This document shows, one piece after another, positions 56,129 through 64,000 of a DNA stretch of 64,000 nt. A program made the translations under genes and the position numbers. The stretch spans positions 1,860,001-1,924,000 of the forward strand of contig NZ_SNWG01000001.1 of the NCBI RefSeq assembly GCF_004362195.1, given 5' to 3'. Position 1 is the stretch's first letter. Each line of letters begins with the position of its first letter. The notes under the pieces were generated by a model, which worked only from the letters and a program-made list of their open reading frames with translations, did no database searches and was not told the DNA's origin. This DNA comes from Microbacterium sp. BK668. Its GTDB lineage: Bacteria; Actinomycetota; Actinomycetes; Actinomycetales; Microbacteriaceae.

Positions 56129-56200
56129 GCCTCTGTAGCTCAATGGAAGAGCAGCTCCGTCCTAAGGAGAGGGTTGGGGGTTCGAGTCCCTCCAGGGGCA
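56129..56200 (+). tRNA. tRNA-Arg(CCU), island insertion site
   Basis: Acceptor GCCTCTG/CAGGGGC, D-arm GCTC-GAGC, anticodon loop GTCCTAA with anticodon CCT, T-loop TTCGAGT. CCA is not encoded (CAG follows the discriminator). The 3' half is the likely attachment core for the integrases downstream; no second copy of it was seen in the window. Confidence 0.93.
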
Positions 56201-56424
56201 CAGTCTCTTTTTCTCTCTGACCAGGTATTTCTTCTGTGGTCAGACCAGTCAGAGTGCGTTTTGGCCGCATTTTGGCCGCATTCGAGTTTGCTACGAGCCA
56301 AAACCGAGGCAGATTCGACGCCCTTCGCGGAGCGTCGTTCGACGCCTCAGAACGACGAAATCGAGCATTTCTGACGTCCTGAGCCTCGCCGAAAAGTTGA
56401 GCAGTCTGCTCTCCGGCGTTACGT

Positions 56425-56629: not shown

Positions 56630-57463
56630 TCACGCCACAGACACGTCGATAGCCTCCAAACCCGCTCGAAATGCCCCTACAATCTCGACTTGGCGATCTT
56701 GGCTCTTCGGTTGCACCGCCATGTGCGATGCAAACCTTAGGAGATCCGAGCCCGCGAATGCCAGCGCCAAGGCGTCAGCATTCGACGGGGCGAGGCTCGC
56801 GCGCACATCAGATCCGAGCAAGTGCGCCGCCGCGAGAGGCATGTCGAACTCATATCGCTCAGCAATGTTCAGCTGGTCGCCGTAGAGCCGGTCCTGCACC
56901 TCGGTCCAATCGTCATACCAGCGGAGAATGAGGCCAAAATCGATCGCGTCCTTGGGCTCGCCATAGACCGATCGGTCCACCCAGGCCCGAGCCTTTAGCG
57001 CCGCATAGCCGGCGGGCGTAGGGATCCTGATCCGATGGCCTGCGCCGGGGAGATCGATCAGCAGGGCCTGAGCGAACACGTCCTCGAAACCGAACACCAC
57101 GAGACCCTCCGTCCTTGTTGCGGGGCTCGATATCCCGCTTGGGTCTTCGATGGGTGAGCCGAATGGCATGACGTCGACGGGAACTCCCGAGATTAGGTAG
57201 CGAATGCCATTGCTACCAACACGACGAAAAGCACGTTCGACGCGCTCGAACGCGGCCCAGTCGGCTAGCGCGATTCCCAGATCGAGGTCTTGCGTCGCGG
57301 TGTTGGCGCTTGTCTGACCGAGTGCGCCGTGGAGCGCATCCCGGCAGCGGGCACCGACGAGCATGATGCAGCTCGGATCGATGTCGGCCAGCCTGACTAG
57401 GTCCTCGACGACCAGGCCGACGTCATCGAGCTGGCGCAGGTCACTGGGCGCGAAGGTCAGCAT
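56630..57463 (-). CDS. AbiEii-type nucleotidyltransferase toxin
   Basis: A 277-residue protein with a nucleotidyltransferase fold (CIMLVGARCRDALHG, then TQDLDLGIAL with the D-x-D metal pair, and VPVDVMPFG carrying the third Asp). In AbiE systems such enzymes are toxins that add nucleotides to tRNA or proteins. The upstream AbiEi-like gene overlaps its start by 23 bp, the classical order (antitoxin first). Sequence similarity to known AbiEii beyond the fold is not visible, so the family name is tentative. Confidence 0.7.
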   Translation of the reverse strand: MLTFAPSDLRQLDDVGLVVEDLVRLADIDPSCIMLVGARCRDALHGALGQTSANTATQDLDLGIALADWAAFERVERAFRRVGSNGIRYLISGVPVDVMPFGSPIEDPSGISSPATRTEGLVVFGFEDVFAQALLIDLPGAGHRIRIPTPAGYAALKARAWVDRSVYGEPKDAIDFGLILRWYDDWTEVQDRLYGDQLNIAERYEFDMPLAAAHLLGSDVRASLAPSNADALALAFAGSDLLRFASHMAVQPKSQDRQVEIVGAFRAGLEAIDVSVA

Positions 57464-58445
57464 GCTCGGAGCGAAGGTAGTCGGCCGCTTCGCGTTGACG
57501 CGAGTCGTTTGATGTGACGAGGTCTGCGTATACGAGTAGTGGTGGAGCGGTCCGGACGCGCGGCTTCATGTCAAGGCTCGGGGGTTCGTTCCAGAAGATC
57601 GGCCGGACGAAGATGTTCGGTTCGCCCGCACGTGCCGCCCAACGCCCAGCGGCTGCCGCCTCTCGAGGGATCTCGTTGCAGTACAGCGTCCATGTCTTGT
57701 TGCCCCTAAGCCAGTCGGCTGCGGCCTCGCCGCTGATGTAGATGTCGGGACCTTCATCGGACACGAGACGAGGGTCGAAGTCCCCACGGAAGGCGCGGGT
57801 TTTGTCCGGAGACCCAATCGTGCCCCGGAACGACGCCACCCATCCGTCGATGAGCGCGTCGAGATCGTTCAGACGCCGTCCGCCGCGTGCACCTGTGCCC
57901 GTCTCGATGTAGTTCGCGATCTCGAGGTCCGCGAGAGTGCGCTGTGCGAATCCGACCGAGACGCCAGCTACCTGGGCGATTTGTCGCAGCTTCGCGTTCA
58001 GGATGTCGGGCCAGCAGATCAGCGCGAAAATGACCTGGGCACGCTTTGGGCTGAAGAGGTTGGACATGCTCGGTCTAGCTTGGTATTCGGTCGCAAGAGG
58101 ATCGCCGGAGCGCCCACGGACATCCACGAGCACGTTGCCAAACTCGAAGTAGGCGTTCCCATTGGCGTCGATGAAGTTGATCCCCAGATCGCGAAAGCGG
58201 TCGGCGTTGCGCGGAGTGATCTTGGCGCCCATCACCAGAAGAGGGTGGGCTGTCCAGCGAGCCTGCGTGTACGAGTCAGGCATCTGCATGTGGGGACTCA
58301 GTAGCGTGAGGTACTCCTGCGACTGCGTCTGCCGTCTAACACGCGCGAGGGTAATAGACTCACCCTGCTCGAGCGGCCCTGTGTCTAGGATCTCGATGTC
58401 GTAGGCTGCGGCGCGCTGCAGGAGTGCCTTGAGGAGGTCGTCCAT
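57441..58445 (-). CDS. AbiEi-type antitoxin/repressor
   Basis: A 334-residue protein with a winged-helix part in the middle (KRAQVIFALICWPDILNAKL, QIAQVAGVSVGFAQRTLADLEIANYIE). The C-terminal half (DIYISGEAAADWLRG, WTLYCNEIPREAAAAGRW) is AbiEi-like, and LLVYADLVTSNDSRQREAADYL is near the end. The N-terminal part (about 1-120) looks like a restriction-endonuclease-like beta fold. It would bind the inverted repeat immediately upstream and repress the pair. It overlaps the toxin gene. Confidence 0.78.
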   Translation of the reverse strand: MDDLLKALLQRAAAYDIEILDTGPLEQGESITLARVRRQTQSQEYLTLLSPHMQMPDSYTQARWTAHPLLVMGAKITPRNADRFRDLGINFIDANGNAYFEFGNVLVDVRGRSGDPLATEYQARPSMSNLFSPKRAQVIFALICWPDILNAKLRQIAQVAGVSVGFAQRTLADLEIANYIETGTGARGGRRLNDLDALIDGWVASFRGTIGSPDKTRAFRGDFDPRLVSDEGPDIYISGEAAADWLRGNKTWTLYCNEIPREAAAAGRWAARAGEPNIFVRPIFWNEPPSLDMKPRVRTAPPLLVYADLVTSNDSRQREAADYLRSEHADLRAQ

Positions 58446-58589: not shown

Positions 58590-59720
58590 TCAATGCGGCC
58601 GGGCGTAGCGAGTCTGCGGACCCGACGGCAGCGCCACGAGCGGCATGGCGTCGTTGAGGCGCGATGCGACGGCATCCAGATCGTCGTCGAAGAGGTCGGC
58701 GTAGGTGTCGAGTGTCATGGCCGCGGACGCGTGCCCCAGCATCCGCTGCACGGCTTTCACGTTGGCGCCGGAGCTGATCGCGAGCGACGCGGCGGTGTGG
58801 CGGAGATCGTGGGGCGTCAGCCGTGGGATCGATGGGTCCACAGCCTGCGCGCGGCGGACGGCGTTCGCGAACCATCCCTGTGCGCCTGAGTTGCGCATGT
58901 GGTTGACGCCGTCGCCGAACAGCAGCCCTTCCGGCCCCTTGCCGGCGCACGCCTGCTCGATCATCGGAGCGAGGCGCCCCGGGTAGGGCACCGAGCGCTT
59001 CTCGTGCGTCTTGGGCGTGCCGACGTGGATCTCGTACGCGATCATCACCGCGTTCTCCTCGATCACGAAGCGCCGACGCAGCCGGTTCACGCTGCGCACG
59101 CGCAGCGCCGTCGCCTCACCCCACCGCAGGCCGGTGTAGGCCAAGGTCAGGACCATCGTCGGATGCGCCGAGCACGCCGCCAACGTCGCCACCTGGTCAT
59201 GCGAGAGATAGACGCGGCGCTTGCCCGGTCCGCTCCGAGGGAGATTGCGGATGTGTCGCGCCGGATTGCTCGCAAGGCGCCGATCATCGATGGCGACATC
59301 GAGGGTGCCGGCGAGGACTCCCAGCGCGCGAAGAACGACCGTACGCGTCTTCGCAGTCGCGAGCTCTGACACCCAATCCTGAACTTCAGACCGCCGGATC
59401 GACCAGATCTCCCTGTCTGCCCAGACGGGAGCGACGTGGTTCTTCCACGCCCGCTCCAAAGTCATGTAGTACGAAGGCTTCGACATCGGCGGCTGCTTCG
59501 ACCGCAGCCAGCTGTCGGCGAACATCCGGACCGGCACCCGGGACGCCACGGGGTCGATTTACTCGCCCTTCGACTTGGACACGGTGACCATGGACAGGTA
59601 GAGCTTCGCCTCGCGCATCGTCGTGAAGCCGCGCTTCTGCCCTTCGGTGCGATCAGGCTTGCGGTAGCGCACACGGTAGCGGCGGCCGCTCGCCGTTTCG
59701 TACGGGGTGATGGTGCCCAT
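58590..59720 (-). pseudogene. Tyrosine integrase split by an in-frame TAA
   Basis: The complete frame would be 376 codons: an N-terminal arm-binding domain from ATG 59720 (MGTITPYETASGRRYRVRYR), SAM-like core-binding domain, and catalytic domain with R (TGLRWGEA), HDLRHTAAS, and the nucleophile Tyr in LDTYADL. A TAA at 59561-59559 replaces the residue between KGE and IDP, most likely a Tyr codon in the ancestor. The remaining ORF from GTG 59549 gives 319 residues without the arm domain. The enzyme is probably inactive or needs reinitiation. Confidence 0.85.
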
Positions 59721-60039: not shown

Positions 60040-60360
60040 GTGACGAGTGAGCGAGTTCGTGAAGCCTTGTCGGAGTTCGTGCGCGAGCGCGACTGGGCCC
60101 AATTTCATACGCCAGCAAACCTCGCGAAGAGCATTTCGATCGAGGCTGGCGAACTGCTCGAGTGCTTCCAGTGGAGCGACGATGCAGACGAGGTTCGCGT
60201 ACGCGATGAACTTGCCGACGTCGTCACATACTGCACACTGCTCGCCGCTCAACTGGGAATCGACCTGGACGAGATCGTCCTCCAGAAGCTCGCGGTAACA
60301 GGCTCGAAGTACCCCGCCGATCGATCGAGAGGGCGGAGCACGAAGTATGACGCCCTTTGA
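60040..60360 (+). CDS. MazG-like nucleotide pyrophosphohydrolase
   Basis: A 106-residue all-alpha NTP pyrophosphohydrolase of the dCTPase/RS21-C6 branch. The metal-binding set is EAGELLECFQW and ELADVVTYC. It would cleave (d)NTPs to monophosphates. The GTG at 60040 is preceded by GATACC seven bases earlier, so the transcript may be leaderless. Its last 14 bases overlap the next gene, which suggests a functional pair. Not a housekeeping MazG by size and location. Confidence 0.85.
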   Translation: MTSERVREALSEFVRERDWAQFHTPANLAKSISIEAGELLECFQWSDDADEVRVRDELADVVTYCTLLAAQLGIDLDEIVLQKLAVTGSKYPADRSRGRSTKYDAL

Positions 60361-62086
60361 GATCGAACGGCTCGACTTCACCACACCCGCGATCTCAACT
60401 TGGGCGTCCGGTGATGAACGGCGGACGAACTGGCCTGTCGTCTACGTTCTCGACAGCGCCGGGTCCCCGGATGCGCCATCTGTCTATGTCGGCGAGACGG
60501 TCAGCGCCGTGTCACGCCTGCGTCAGCACATCCCGAATCCATCAAAGGCAGGGTTCCGCCGGGTGCGTGTCGTCATAGACGAGACGTTCAACAAGTCGGC
60601 GTGTCTCGACCTCGAGTCGCACCTCATCCGCTGGCTCGCCGGCGACGGGCACTTCACAGTGCTCAACGGAAACGAGGGCATCATCGACGCGCGGTACTAC
60701 GAGCGCGACCAGTACCGCGAGAGCTTTCGTGACATCTTCGAGCAGCTGCGATCGGACGGGATCTTTCAGCGCAGCATCCCCGAGATCGAGAACAGCGATC
60801 TCTTCAAGCTCTCGCCTTTCAAGGTCCTAACTCGAGAGCAGGCAATCGCCGTCGAGCAGATCGTTGAATCGCTGCTCGCGGATCTCGCGACGGGCACACG
60901 ATCGACCAGCGTCATCCAGGGGAATCCGGGTACGGGCAAGACGATCGTGGCGATCTTCCTCATGAAGCTGCTGGCTGACATCCGCGACTACGACGACACG
61001 GATGAGATCGAGCAGGACTCCCTCTTCTCAGAGTTCTTCGTCCCTGAGAACCGCGAGCTACTGAAGAGCGTCCGGGTCGGACTGGTCGTACCCCAGCAGT
61101 CGCTTCGAGACTCGATCAAGAAGGTGTTCAAGAAGACGCCGAAGGTCAGTGAGGACCTCGTGTTGAACCCGTTCGACGTCGGCAAGTCGTCCATGCCGTT
61201 CGACCTCCTCATCGTCGACGAGACGCACCGGCTCAACCGCCGCGCGAACCAATCCTCGGGTATGCGTAACCGCGACTTCGCGGACATCAACGAACGACTC
61301 TTTGGGTCCGATGACCTCCGCAAGACCCAGCTCGACTGGATCCGCGCCCAGAGCACGCACCAAATCCTGCTCATCGACGAGCGCCAAGGTGTGCGGCCGG
61401 CGGACCTCCCGGGCGAGACGCTCGCCGCCGAGATTGCCGATGCAAAGCAGTTGCATCGGTGGTTTCCGTTAGCAAGGCAGATGCGGGTGAACGCGGACGC
61501 AGACTACGTGGGATTCATTCGCCAGCTTCTTCAGGGCGAGCTTCGCGTAGGGGGCCGACCGGACTTCGGCGAGTACGACCTGCGGTTCTTTGACAGCATC
61601 ACCGAGATGCAGGAGGCGATTTGCGAGCGCGACCGCGAAGCCGGCCTCGCCCGACTTGTAGCTGGCTACGCCTGGGACTGGAAGACCCGCGGCAACAAGC
61701 CCGGCTTCGACTTCGAACTCGAGGGAATCGAGTTCACCTGGAATCGCACCGACACGGACTGGATCAACTCGCCCAGCTCGACCCATGAAGTCGGCTCGAT
61801 CCATACCGTGCAGGGCTATGACCTCAACTACGCCGGCGTAATAATCGGCATGGACCTCCGGTACGACGAGGTCATGCGACAGATTGTCGTAGACCGTGAC
61901 GCCTACCGCGACAAGAAGGGGAAGGAGAACCTCGCACAACTCCGTCGGTCAACGACGAACGAAGATCTCCTCGCCCTCATCCAGAACATCTACGGAGTTC
62001 TGCTTACGCGGGGTATCCGAGGCACATACATCTACGTGTGCGATCCAGATCTCCGTCACTACTTCAAGTCCGTCCTGCAAGGTTGA
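60347..62086 (+). CDS. GIY-YIG nuclease fused to DUF2075 ATPase/helicase
   Basis: A 579-residue protein. An N-terminal GIY-YIG-type nuclease (about 30-110) reads VVYVLD, VYVGET, R57, catalytic Glu in LDLESHLI (E90), and Asn in LNGNEG. From about 160 there is a P-loop ATPase of DUF2075 (Schlafen-like group): Walker A QGNPGTGKTI (191-200), Walker B LLIVDETHRLN (DETH at 291-294), then IDERQGVRP, a QMRVN motif and HTVQGYDLNYAGVIIG. It likely cuts and unwinds nucleic acid under ATP control. Coupled to the MazG-like gene. Seen in defence islands, mechanism unknown. Confidence 0.85.
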   Translation: MTPFEIERLDFTTPAISTWASGDERRTNWPVVYVLDSAGSPDAPSVYVGETVSAVSRLRQHIPNPSKAGFRRVRVVIDETFNKSACLDLESHLIRWLAGDGHFTVLNGNEGIIDARYYERDQYRESFRDIFEQLRSDGIFQRSIPEIENSDLFKLSPFKVLTREQAIAVEQIVESLLADLATGTRSTSVIQGNPGTGKTIVAIFLMKLLADIRDYDDTDEIEQDSLFSEFFVPENRELLKSVRVGLVVPQQSLRDSIKKVFKKTPKVSEDLVLNPFDVGKSSMPFDLLIVDETHRLNRRANQSSGMRNRDFADINERLFGSDDLRKTQLDWIRAQSTHQILLIDERQGVRPADLPGETLAAEIADAKQLHRWFPLARQMRVNADADYVGFIRQLLQGELRVGGRPDFGEYDLRFFDSITEMQEAICERDREAGLARLVAGYAWDWKTRGNKPGFDFELEGIEFTWNRTDTDWINSPSSTHEVGSIHTVQGYDLNYAGVIIGMDLRYDEVMRQIVVDRDAYRDKKGKENLAQLRRSTTNEDLLALIQNIYGVLLTRGIRGTYIYVCDPDLRHYFKSVLQG

Positions 62087-62267: not shown

Positions 62268-63449
62268 TTACGCGACCGCGAGCGCGGCGGCTCGATCGGC
62301 TATGCCGCGATCCTCGGCCAGGTGGAACTTGACCTGACGGGCGATTGCGCGCGCCAAACCCGAAGGTACCGCGTTTCCGATCTGGCGAGCGACTTGAATC
62401 TTGGTTCCCACCCATCGGTAGTCACGCGGGAAGTCTTGAATCAATGAAGCTTCGTAGTGCGTGATGACTCGATCGACCGACCGCGCCGGGTCACCTCGGA
62501 GCCGCGAGTGCTCCTCATCCCACTCGCCAGCCTCCCATTGCGGGTGCAAGTACTGCCCCTTTTCTGGCTTGAAGAACTCAGTCCTGATCGTGACAGACGG
62601 ATGATCCCAGCGGAGCCGCCCCATGACGTCAGTCGTGCCGGTTGGTTTATTCACCCAGCACGTGGGCAGTAGCGAGACCGGCAGGTCGAAGCGGCCGCCC
62701 CCGGGAGGAACGAAACTGTAGCGGCGCAGACTCTTCTCGGTAGGTCGACGCTTGATGTGAAGCTCGACGCCGACGAACTCGCCGGGCATTGCCTCACCGA
62801 AGTGAACCGACGATCGGGCTGGTAGCTCAGTTGTCAACGGGTCCGCAGGGAGGCCTTCAATGACGTCGCGTACGGTCCTCCACGGCAGGAGGCCGGATCC
62901 CGGAGTCGGAGACTTTGCGTGAGTTGGTTCCGGAAGAGGTATCACTCCGACACGAGATCCGATGATGATCGTCCGCTTGCGCCGCTGGGCAACGCCATAA
63001 TCGGCGGCGTTGAGCACCGCGTGCTGCAGTTCGTATTCACGAAGTGCGCCGTGCTCGGTTTCCGCGAGCAGCATCTGGAACTCAGGTGATTTCGCGAATC
63101 GATCAACGTTCTCGATAACGAAAACCTTCGGGTTCGATATCTTGACAAACCGCATGAACTCGCGCCACAGCTGATTGCGAGGGTCATTGATGTCCTTGAG
63201 GCCGAGATTGGAGAACCCCTGGCACGGGGGGCCGCCTATCACGATGTCGGCTGCCGGGATGATGTGATCGGGAACGCCAGCGATGTCGCCCGCGATCACG
63301 TGGTCCTCGCCGAAGTTGGCGGCGTAGGTGGCAGCCGCCGCCCTGTCCCATTCAACCGCAAGGATCGGTCGGAACCCCTCTTCGGCGAACCCGACGGTCA
63401 TCCCACCGCATCCGGCGAACAGGTCGATCAAACGAAGCGCGGAGGTCAT
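62268..63449 (-). CDS. C5 cytosine DNA methyltransferase, NaeI-type R-M
   Basis: A 393-residue cytosine-5 methyltransferase. Motif I LFAGCGGMTVGF (10-21), catalytic PPCQGFS with C76, ENVDRF, QRRKRTIIIG (motif VIII), a target-recognition region about 205-300 and motif X (QIGNAVPSGLARAIA) are all present. It protects the host from the adjacent endonuclease. The likely site is GCCGGC, taken from the NaeI similarity of the neighbour. It lies 81 bp downstream of the endonuclease gene on the same strand. Confidence 0.93.
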   Translation of the reverse strand: MTSALRLIDLFAGCGGMTVGFAEEGFRPILAVEWDRAAAATYAANFGEDHVIAGDIAGVPDHIIPAADIVIGGPPCQGFSNLGLKDINDPRNQLWREFMRFVKISNPKVFVIENVDRFAKSPEFQMLLAETEHGALREYELQHAVLNAADYGVAQRRKRTIIIGSRVGVIPLPEPTHAKSPTPGSGLLPWRTVRDVIEGLPADPLTTELPARSSVHFGEAMPGEFVGVELHIKRRPTEKSLRRYSFVPPGGGRFDLPVSLLPTCWVNKPTGTTDVMGRLRWDHPSVTIRTEFFKPEKGQYLHPQWEAGEWDEEHSRLRGDPARSVDRVITHYEASLIQDFPRDYRWVGTKIQVARQIGNAVPSGLARAIARQVKFHLAEDRGIADRAAALAVA

Positions 63450-63530: not shown

Positions 63531-64000
63531 TCAGAGGGTCCTAGGGAGCAGCGGCGCCGGGGTGGGGGGATCATCGTTGCGAGCCTTCGCCCACCGCTTG
63601 CCGTCCAGTACTGTGAACTTCCGTGTATCGGCTTCGTTGACGGGCACTACCCGTACGCTGATCCATTCGCCTTTAGCGGGAGCGGGCAGACCGAGTTCTC
63701 GCGCGACACGTTGATGGGCCAGCTCATGCCCAATCACTAGCATCCCGTCCGGTCGGAGGTGTGGCCGAGCGTCACGCGCACGCTTCGGTGCGTCGTCTTG
63801 CTGGGCGACGGTAAGGACGGTCTGGCGGCCAATTAGTTGCTGCTGAACCTCTCGAAACAGCTGGTTCACTCGCGCTTGACCGGAGCGGGCGTTGGCGAAC
63901 ACGCGAGCACGCGCCTCCGGACTCATGTGTAGAAGGAGGTTGCGCGGAAGGTCACTCTGCCGGCCGCCCCAGAGCCAGAAGATGTCTTTCGCTGCTGCGT
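63531..64000 (-). CDS. NaeI-type type II restriction endonuclease, 3' part only
   Basis: At least 156 codons; the frame is open to the window edge, so the N-terminal catalytic domain lies outside. The visible part matches my memory of the NaeI C-terminal DNA-binding (topo-like/CAP) domain over most of its length: DLPRNLLLH, SGQARVNQLFREVQ, LIGRQTVLTVAQQDD, HLRPDGMLVIGHE, LGLPAPAKGEW. NaeI cuts GCC/GGC and needs two sites. With the methyltransferase it forms a compact R-M system in the island. Confidence 0.85.
   Translation of the reverse strand, partial: AAAKDIFWLWGGRQSDLPRNLLLHMSPEARARVFANARSGQARVNQLFREVQQQLIGRQTVLTVAQQDDAPKRARDARPHLRPDGMLVIGHELAHQRVARELGLPAPAKGEWISVRVVPVNEADTRKFTVLDGKRWAKARNDDPPTPAPLLPRTL

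Follow-up and report, generated by a model that had tools for sequence, protein, structure and literature searches.

A conserved gene pair joining a dCTPP1-type MazG-like protein to a GIY-YIG nuclease and Schlafen group-3 helicase in a Microbacterium tRNA island

Closest described systems and a linked gene pair

AbiO and Nhi combine nuclease and helicase in defence. Among GIY-YIG nucleases, CMoRE is a type IV restriction enzyme that acts against hydroxymethyl-cytosine phages (PMC12923530), and the DefensePredictor study, which cites a 2015 bioinformatic study, places MazG among the nucleotide-acting domains with a predicted but unvalidated role in defence (PMC13092281). Bacterial Schlafens are the subject of a preprint that PMC12839542 cites. 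Here we describe a pair of overlapping genes in Microbacterium sp. BK668, lying on a 64,000-nucleotide stretch (contig NZ_SNWG01000001.1, 1,860,001 to 1,924,000) that we call the window and on whose scale all positions are given. The first gene encodes a small MazG-like protein, and the second a large protein that joins a GIY-YIG nuclease domain to a helicase of the SLFN-g3 (DUF2075) type. Nuclease-helicase defence is the known kind to which this locus compares; the new element is the predicted nucleotide-hydrolysing partner.

At an E-value of 0.01, PADLOC v2.0.0 contained no model matching the MazG gene and no full-length model for the large protein, in agreement with an earlier sequence-only reading of this DNA, which knew of no characterised system with exactly this pair. 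The large protein gave partial matches, of the Walker-A region to AbiO and Nhi, of the GIY domain to PDC-S14, and of the C-terminus to PDC-S41. In each case the likeness is short and local, and none spans the protein. CMoRE resembles it in being a bacterial GIY-YIG nuclease with a defence role, proposed or shown, but is single-component and carries a GIYxY-YIG motif, whereas the nuclease described here comes with a helicase and a MazG partner (PMC12923530). The tyrosine two positions after Y33 is absent from all 23 rows of our N-terminal domain alignment, of which 21 have Leu, Ile or Met there (L35 in the window protein). Identity with CMoRE was rejected because both motif and architecture differ. 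The DefensePredictor main text mentions neither GIY nor DUF2075 (PMC13092281), and no description of the pair was found in the literature searched, a scope outside which subscription papers and most preprints fall.

The MazG-like gene (60040..60360, + strand) runs from a GTG at 60040, a start that matches those of its relatives in alignment, to a stop at 60360 and encodes 106 residues. The nuclease-helicase gene (60347..62086, + strand) runs from an ATG at 60347 to a stop at 62086 and encodes 579 residues. Coordinates, domains and the 14-bp overlap (60347..60360, + strand) are all as first read from the sequence. The second ATG lies within the codons of a conserved C-terminal Lys-Tyr-Asp of the MazG-like protein, and a Shine-Dalgarno-like GGAG (60335..60338, + strand) is found within mazG, 8 nt 5' of that ATG; many relatives have purine-rich stretches at the equivalent place. 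With the window left aside, and with the ATG at the homologous place used throughout (a few relatives have additional upstream start codons), 23 of 29 same-order relatives have the identical 14-bp overlap. The remaining six have a 4-bp overlap, a 1-nt gap and an 8-nt gap (one each), MazG downstream of the helicase (L019 and L022), or the two genes divergent (L031). Since it is identical in 23 of 29 relatives the overlap is not a chance arrangement, and its position is fixed in part because the conserved Lys-Tyr-Asp provides the ATG. The arrangement suggests that translation of the two genes is coupled.

Linkage of the two genes was followed from both sides. Of 297 same-order genomes, 30 (counting the window's own) contain a helicase homologue at E 1e-30, a patchy distribution, and MazG adjoins the helicase at all 29 same-order loci fetched besides the window. 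A helicase profile run against GTDB contigs, a sample and not a census, recovered at least 15 loci; MazG is near in 14 of 15 of the matches listed, and those matches include Clavibacter, Nesterenkonia, Corynebacterium, Flavobacterium, Sphingobacterium, Coriobacteriaceae, Lachnospiraceae, Solobacterium, Pseudomonas and others. Homologues at E 1e-15 occur in 31 of 396 genomes of a phylum sample. Over all sets, with the window included and the duplicates L002, L047, L048 and L050 excluded, 48 of 54 GIY-type helicases, from Actinomycetota, Bacteroidota and Bacillota, have MazG no more than 500 bp away, as do 14 of 27 SLFN-g3 genes of non-GIY type, one of them archaeal; some flanks extend just 1.5 kb, so MazG genes may have been missed. 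By set, linkage of the GIY type is 30/30 in the same order (where the other type is absent), 11/12 in the GTDB contigs (matches listed), 5/7 in the phylum sample and 2/5 in plasmid, phage and viral records; the corresponding figures for the other type in the last three sets are 3/4, 10/20 and 1/3. The conserved module of the sequence-only reading is therefore upheld by the co-occurrence check, as GIY-type homologues are mostly linked (48 of 54).

Starting from MazG, matches at E 1e-6 were obtained in 75 of the 297 genomes, as 80 rows that reduce to 78 places once split matches are joined. At 31 of these places MazG is the partner already found from the helicase side; all of the other 47 were fetched, and an SLFN-g3 helicase lies within 500 bp at 21 of them and at none of the remaining 26, giving 52 of 78 places with such a helicase. 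The weakest MazG matches all fall in unlinked places; at one unlinked place a helicase fragment lies 3.9 kb off. Six of the 21 newly found helicases are GIY-type and 15 are nearer the non-GIY profile; five of the six come from one family and stand on the strand opposite to MazG. In this small-genome family (f4, L136-L140) about 200 bp separate the matched domains of MazG and the divergent helicase.

Chance pairing is rejected by these linkage counts. The same-order genomes share ancestry, so their counts are not independent, and the case for a unit gains more from its occurrence in several phyla. Distances between MazG proteins correlate with those between their helicases (Mantel correlation 0.73 over 46 pairs, reached by 0 of 2000 permutations; 0.43 over 501 close comparisons), a result that common descent alone could yield. 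The locus L011 was excluded from this comparison: it is a decayed copy with mazG broken across two frames. Decay is also seen in an additional copy of the helicase in the same genome (G156:C54), which has one in-frame TGA. No third conserved gene was found, as no cluster of genes within 6 kb recurs at more than 7 of the 29 loci, counting the window, and the clustered genes are ordinary enzymes. The pair is thus a real, conserved two-gene module.

The usual upstream place of MazG and the coupling-type overlap resemble the order of an antidote and its toxin. MazG might accordingly act as a safety catch, either hydrolysing a nucleotide that activates the nuclease-helicase or binding the nuclease-helicase itself, so that the toxin fires when a phage disturbs the nucleotide pool. 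An effector predicted to cut DNA would suit such a role, and Gabija-like nucleotide gating is a precedent. Gene order is variable, though, as at the downstream and divergent loci above; not every helicase has MazG in the flank read, so that MazG may not always be needed; and MazG retains every catalytic residue compared. We think this explanation quite unlikely.

Domains and conserved residues of the two proteins

The small protein matched PF12643 with 68.3 bits (E 7.2e-19; cut-off 27), and its nearest PDB relatives are RS21-C6, or dCTP pyrophosphatase 1 (2a3q and 6sqw, E 9e-19). The plain MazG model PF03819 gave 21.1 bits, under its cut-off of 22, and a generic MazG identity was rejected on these grounds. 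In PHROGs the protein matches a phage pyrophosphatase family (E 1.2e-10). The docking pocket of human DCTPP1 is described as comprising His38, Trp47, Glu63, Glu66, Trp73, Glu95, Asp98 and Tyr102, and the enzyme as acting preferentially on deoxycytidine triphosphate (dCTP) and on its derivatives with a 5-methyl or 5-halo group (PMC4491611). Counting residues along the PDB alignment, seven of these eight are present in the window protein and invariant in 18 of 18 MazG rows (window included): the acids Glu63, Glu66, Glu95 and Asp98 correspond to E35, E38, E57 and D60, and Trp47, Trp73 and Tyr102 to W19, W45 and Y64. E41 is unvarying in the same rows. Likeness to dCTPP1/RS21-C6 thus covers the sequence, the Glu/Asp set, which we take to bind metal in dCTPP1-type enzymes, the equivalents of Trp47, Trp73 and Tyr102, and a C-terminal KY motif. 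The window protein differs in lacking an equivalent of His38, in a 10-residue alignment gap after residue 50, and in being encoded alongside a nuclease-helicase. Because seven of eight pocket residues are kept, and given the reported preference of DCTPP1, our best guess is that the substrate is dCTP or 5-modified dCTP. Depletion of nucleotides by a MazG-type enzyme had been proposed for this locus from the outset; the enzyme class stands, while the dCTPP1-like sequence points to dCTP or its 5-modified forms in place of the dNTP pool at large.

In the large protein, the GIY-YIG nuclease domain (60422..60679, + strand; residues 26-111) matches PF01541 and PADLOC PDC-S14, and the SLFN-g3 helicase domain (60905..62044, + strand; residues 187-566) matches PF09848, SLFN-g3_helicase, the DUF2075 domain (219 bits, E 1.5e-64). 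The GIY-YIG score was 19.4 bits in the whole-protein scan, just under the cut-off of 22.6, and 23.2 bits, over that cut-off, when the domain was scanned alone, which places it in the superfamily. PF01541 matches 22 of 23 N-terminal domains at E 0.01. A profile of the domain found 11 PDB sequences at E ≤10 (best 0.027), all of the GIY-YIG superfamily, from I-TevI, SLX1, Endo II, UvrC and UPF0213. Y33, Y47, G49, R57, H61 and E90 are invariant in all 23 rows of the N-terminal domain alignment and include the Tyr, YxG, Arg and Glu that are presumably catalytic in GIY-YIG enzymes. In an alignment of 19 large proteins, Y33, Y47-x-G49, R57 and E90 are unvarying in the nuclease part, as are G195-T199, D291/E292/H294, D344/Q347, Q489-G490 and R555 in the helicase part, where we take G195-T199 to be Walker A and D291/E292/H294 to be the DExH motif. 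With catalytic motifs invariant among aligned relatives, both genes look active.

An AlphaFold2 model of the large protein had a predicted local distance difference test score (pLDDT) of 88.7 and a predicted template modelling score of 0.88. Its top Foldseek match in the PDB is human SLFN11 (E 4.3e-10); such fold searches are dominated by the helicase half and do not probe the nuclease domains. The PF09848 and SLFN11 matches together identify a Schlafen group-3 helicase domain. No Schlafen nuclease core family was present among the Pfam matches at E 0.01, and GIY-YIG was found in its place. Compared with human SLFN11, then, the helicase domain is alike, but the N-terminus is GIY-YIG and no Schlafen nuclease core was detected. 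Schlafen membership was rejected for lack of that core, and the description of the protein as Schlafen-like, made when only its sequence had been read, holds for the helicase and fails for the nuclease. PHROGs returned nothing for the large protein; among the matches listed by a BFVD search most are viral helicases and replicases.

The non-GIY type has an N-terminal region of its own. Within the first 250 residues, D...E-x-K and Q-x3-Y are invariant (alignments of 19 and 17 rows), corresponding in a Pseudomonas protein to D95, E113-L-K115, Q146 and Y150. The fold predicted there consists of a helix, three strands, a few short strands, a helix and a strand (pLDDT 83.7 overall). We take this pattern to be a PD-(D/E)XK nuclease core, its Q-x3-Y being of the kind present in RecB- or Cas4-like enzymes; the Pfam scan added nothing beyond a NERD match below threshold in one protein. 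The sister form therefore appears to carry a PD-(D/E)XK domain in place of GIY-YIG. MazG-adjacent sister modules that lack GIY-YIG are L042, L043, L044, L058-L060, L062, L064, L066-L068, L070, L071 and L083, of which 12 of 14 are in the alignment (L066 and L068 are outside it). The archaeal pair, on a plasmid of Halalkalicoccus jeotgali (L083), is annotated as 'nucleotide pyrophosphohydrolase' followed by 'DUF2075'. MazG is thus retained in sister modules where the nuclease seems to have been swapped, and the GIY-YIG pair forms a single branch within a broader family. Tandem helicases were also seen, a non-GIY followed by a GIY helicase in a Corynebacterium metagenome-assembled genome (L034:6390-10357) and two non-GIY helicases in Hymenobacter (L084:5281-9279), with no MazG found at either place.

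Genomic setting and association with defence

Around the pair is an integrated island of about 24 kb, rich in defence genes and placed at a tRNA-Arg gene. The tRNA-Arg(CCT) (56129..56201, + strand) forms the left end, and the 20 bp at 56180-56199, from the tRNA's 3' end, are repeated exactly at 80099 on the window's scale, beyond the window, so that the island extends from 56129 to about 80118 (L002, L134). Over most of the island the G+C content is about 0.61-0.67, rising to 0.69 near 71 kb, whereas the DNA outside has about 0.66-0.75. No usable uninterrupted copy of the left flank was found in 29 same-genus genomes (the window's own included), so that only the 20-bp repeat and the fall in G+C mark where the island ends. 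Between the tRNA and the pair lie, all on the - strand, a weakly matched AbiEii-like nucleotidyltransferase (56630..57463; PF08843, 18.2 bits against a cut-off of 22.5), an AbiEi-like antitoxin (57441..58445; PF09952, 51 bits) and a tyrosine recombinase of the phage integrase family (58590..59549; PF00589, 68.2 bits). On the other side, also on the - strand, are a C5-cytosine methyltransferase (62268..63449; PF00145, 202.7 bits) and, beside it, a NaeI-type restriction endonuclease (63531..64000; PF09126, 135.2 bits), whose 412-codon frame continues past the window end. The island further contains a Vsr mismatch endonuclease, the usual companion of a C5 methylase, at 68842-69360 on the window's scale (L002:14843-15361). 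Nine of ten island genes scanned beyond the window had no Pfam match at E 0.001. The setting of AbiE and restriction-modification genes that the sequence-only reading saw around the pair is borne out for the AbiEi-like gene, the C5 methylase and NaeI, and for the AbiEii partner only weakly.

The reading that we favour, at little better than an even chance, is that the pair is a two-gene accessory module for anti-phage or anti-plasmid defence, in which a nuclease-helicase effector would work with a dCTPP1-type partner. Elsewhere than in the window the defence context is mixed. The 137 genes nearest to 28 pair loci matched 56 PADLOC models at 1e-10, compared with 11 models for 137 control genes from 20 of those genomes; the counts are of models and not of proteins, and the models are redundant. 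Among the first 25 of the 56 models, type IV restriction accounts for three proteins, and PDC-S01, PDC-S48, NsnB and AriA for two each. Neighbours were genes of at least 100 residues from a simple gene-calling script, taken from 28 of the 29 loci (the caller missed the pair at L108) and not from the window itself; control sites were picked by coordinate offset, and three long proteins were removed from each 140-protein set under a 50,000-residue limit. A further 88 genes around 14 of the 15 listed GTDB loci (L034 and proteins longer than 1500 residues were excluded) matched 80 models, including DpdF, AbiD, PsyrT, SspE and mREase_IV; this set has no control of its own. An mREase_IV type IV restriction enzyme adjoins the pair or stands one gene off in three genera (L095:4886, L097:4741 and L104:10614), the enzymes being 1027-1047 residues long, scoring 1047-1139 bits and sharing 48-50% mutual identity. 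Four plasmid loci also stand by restriction-modification genes, but MazG is present in only one of the four.

Several observations weigh against this favoured reading. Besides the redundancy of the PADLOC models, the three mREase_IV proteins alone yield 8 of the 56, and the controls themselves match mad3 and mad8 (four proteins each), WYL, HerA, REase_II, AriA and others. Metabolic genes surround many of the loci: alcohol dehydrogenases are the commonest Pfam families (4 of 137), and one genus has the pair beside genes that we take from their sequences to be arginine-biosynthesis-like. Linkage is incomplete, since no SLFN-g3 helicase lies within 500 bp of 26 of the 78 MazG places, and the flanks read showed no MazG for 13 of the 27 non-GIY helicases or for 6 of the 54 of GIY type. 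In the small protein, position 10, which corresponds to His38 of DCTPP1, is Leu. Finally, the island's own C5 methylase would make a nuclease that hits any 5-methylcytosine hard to tolerate.

The metabolic surroundings of many loci also bear on a role in DNA hygiene, in which MazG would clear damaged or modified dCTP and the nuclease-helicase would excise such bases from host DNA, the two forming a pool-sanitising and repair unit. Human dCTPP1 is itself a nucleotide-pool enzyme (PMC4491611), and the repair nuclease UvrC is among the weak PDB matches of the nuclease domain. The patchy occurrence in 30 of 297 genomes, the tRNA island with its restriction-modification and AbiE genes, and the exchange of nuclease domains suggested by the motifs, which is generally more typical of conflict systems, all speak against such a housekeeping unit, and we regard it as unlikely.

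The pair could also be cargo or a maintenance gene of mobile elements, serving for example competition between plasmids or islands and not phage defence. Helicase relatives are found in 39 plasmid records, 12 of which match more than 80% of the helicase length, and the window pair lies in an integrase-bearing island. Against this, no mobile genes are common to the neighbours within 6 kb at the 29 loci, and true phage records are nearly empty of relatives: four phage records have one, three of these being unannotated faecal contigs, and IMG/VR holds at least one weak relative among the matches listed with the profile and none found with the window protein alone. We consider this explanation highly improbable.

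Proposed mechanism and its meaning

For the defence module that we favour, we infer the activities of both proteins, the substrate, the DNA target and the order of events as follows. The large protein would be the effector: its superfamily 1 Schlafen group-3 helicase would load on and travel along foreign or replicating DNA, and the N-terminal GIY-YIG nuclease would cut the DNA that the helicase reaches. That the pair senses phage nucleic acid and cuts it, as the sequence-only reading supposed, is likewise a conjecture. The small dCTPP1-type enzyme would convert dCTP, or more probably 5-modified dCTP, to the monophosphate, altering the cytosine nucleotide pool during attack. Such a change could starve viral DNA synthesis, or it could remove modified dCTP and so deny viral DNA a shield of modified cytosine. 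Through the fixed overlap and coupled translation both proteins would be produced together.

The modified-cytosine idea is attractive because type IV enzymes stand beside or one gene from the pair at three loci, because CMoRE is known, and because the phage Thanatos, which has altered cytosine, is reported to carry a predicted dCTP pyrophosphatase (PMC12838424). The presence of a C5 methylase in the window's own island tells against it. Taken to its furthest, the idea would make the pair part of a new and widespread defence family, with a dCTP-specific pyrophosphatase as the usual companion of a Schlafen-type helicase that bears an exchangeable nuclease. The pyrophosphatase would police modified dCTP so that host DNA is kept without modified cytosine, the nuclease-helicase would destroy DNA that bears it, and nucleotide hygiene would become the mark of self and non-self. 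We hold this extended proposal to be improbable. If it were true, relatives of vertebrate dCTPP1 and of the helicase half of SLFN11 would share one operon.

Nuclease-helicase defence and nucleotide-pool enzymes are usually studied apart; here a predicted dCTP-class pyrophosphatase and a nuclease-helicase make up one overlapping gene pair, whose linkage extends to several phyla of bacteria and to a plasmid of an archaeon, even where the nuclease appears to be of another kind. If the pair is defensive, it would tie control of the nucleotide pool directly to DNA cleavage, and its two genes would make a compact system in which to study how modified and ordinary cytosine are told apart.

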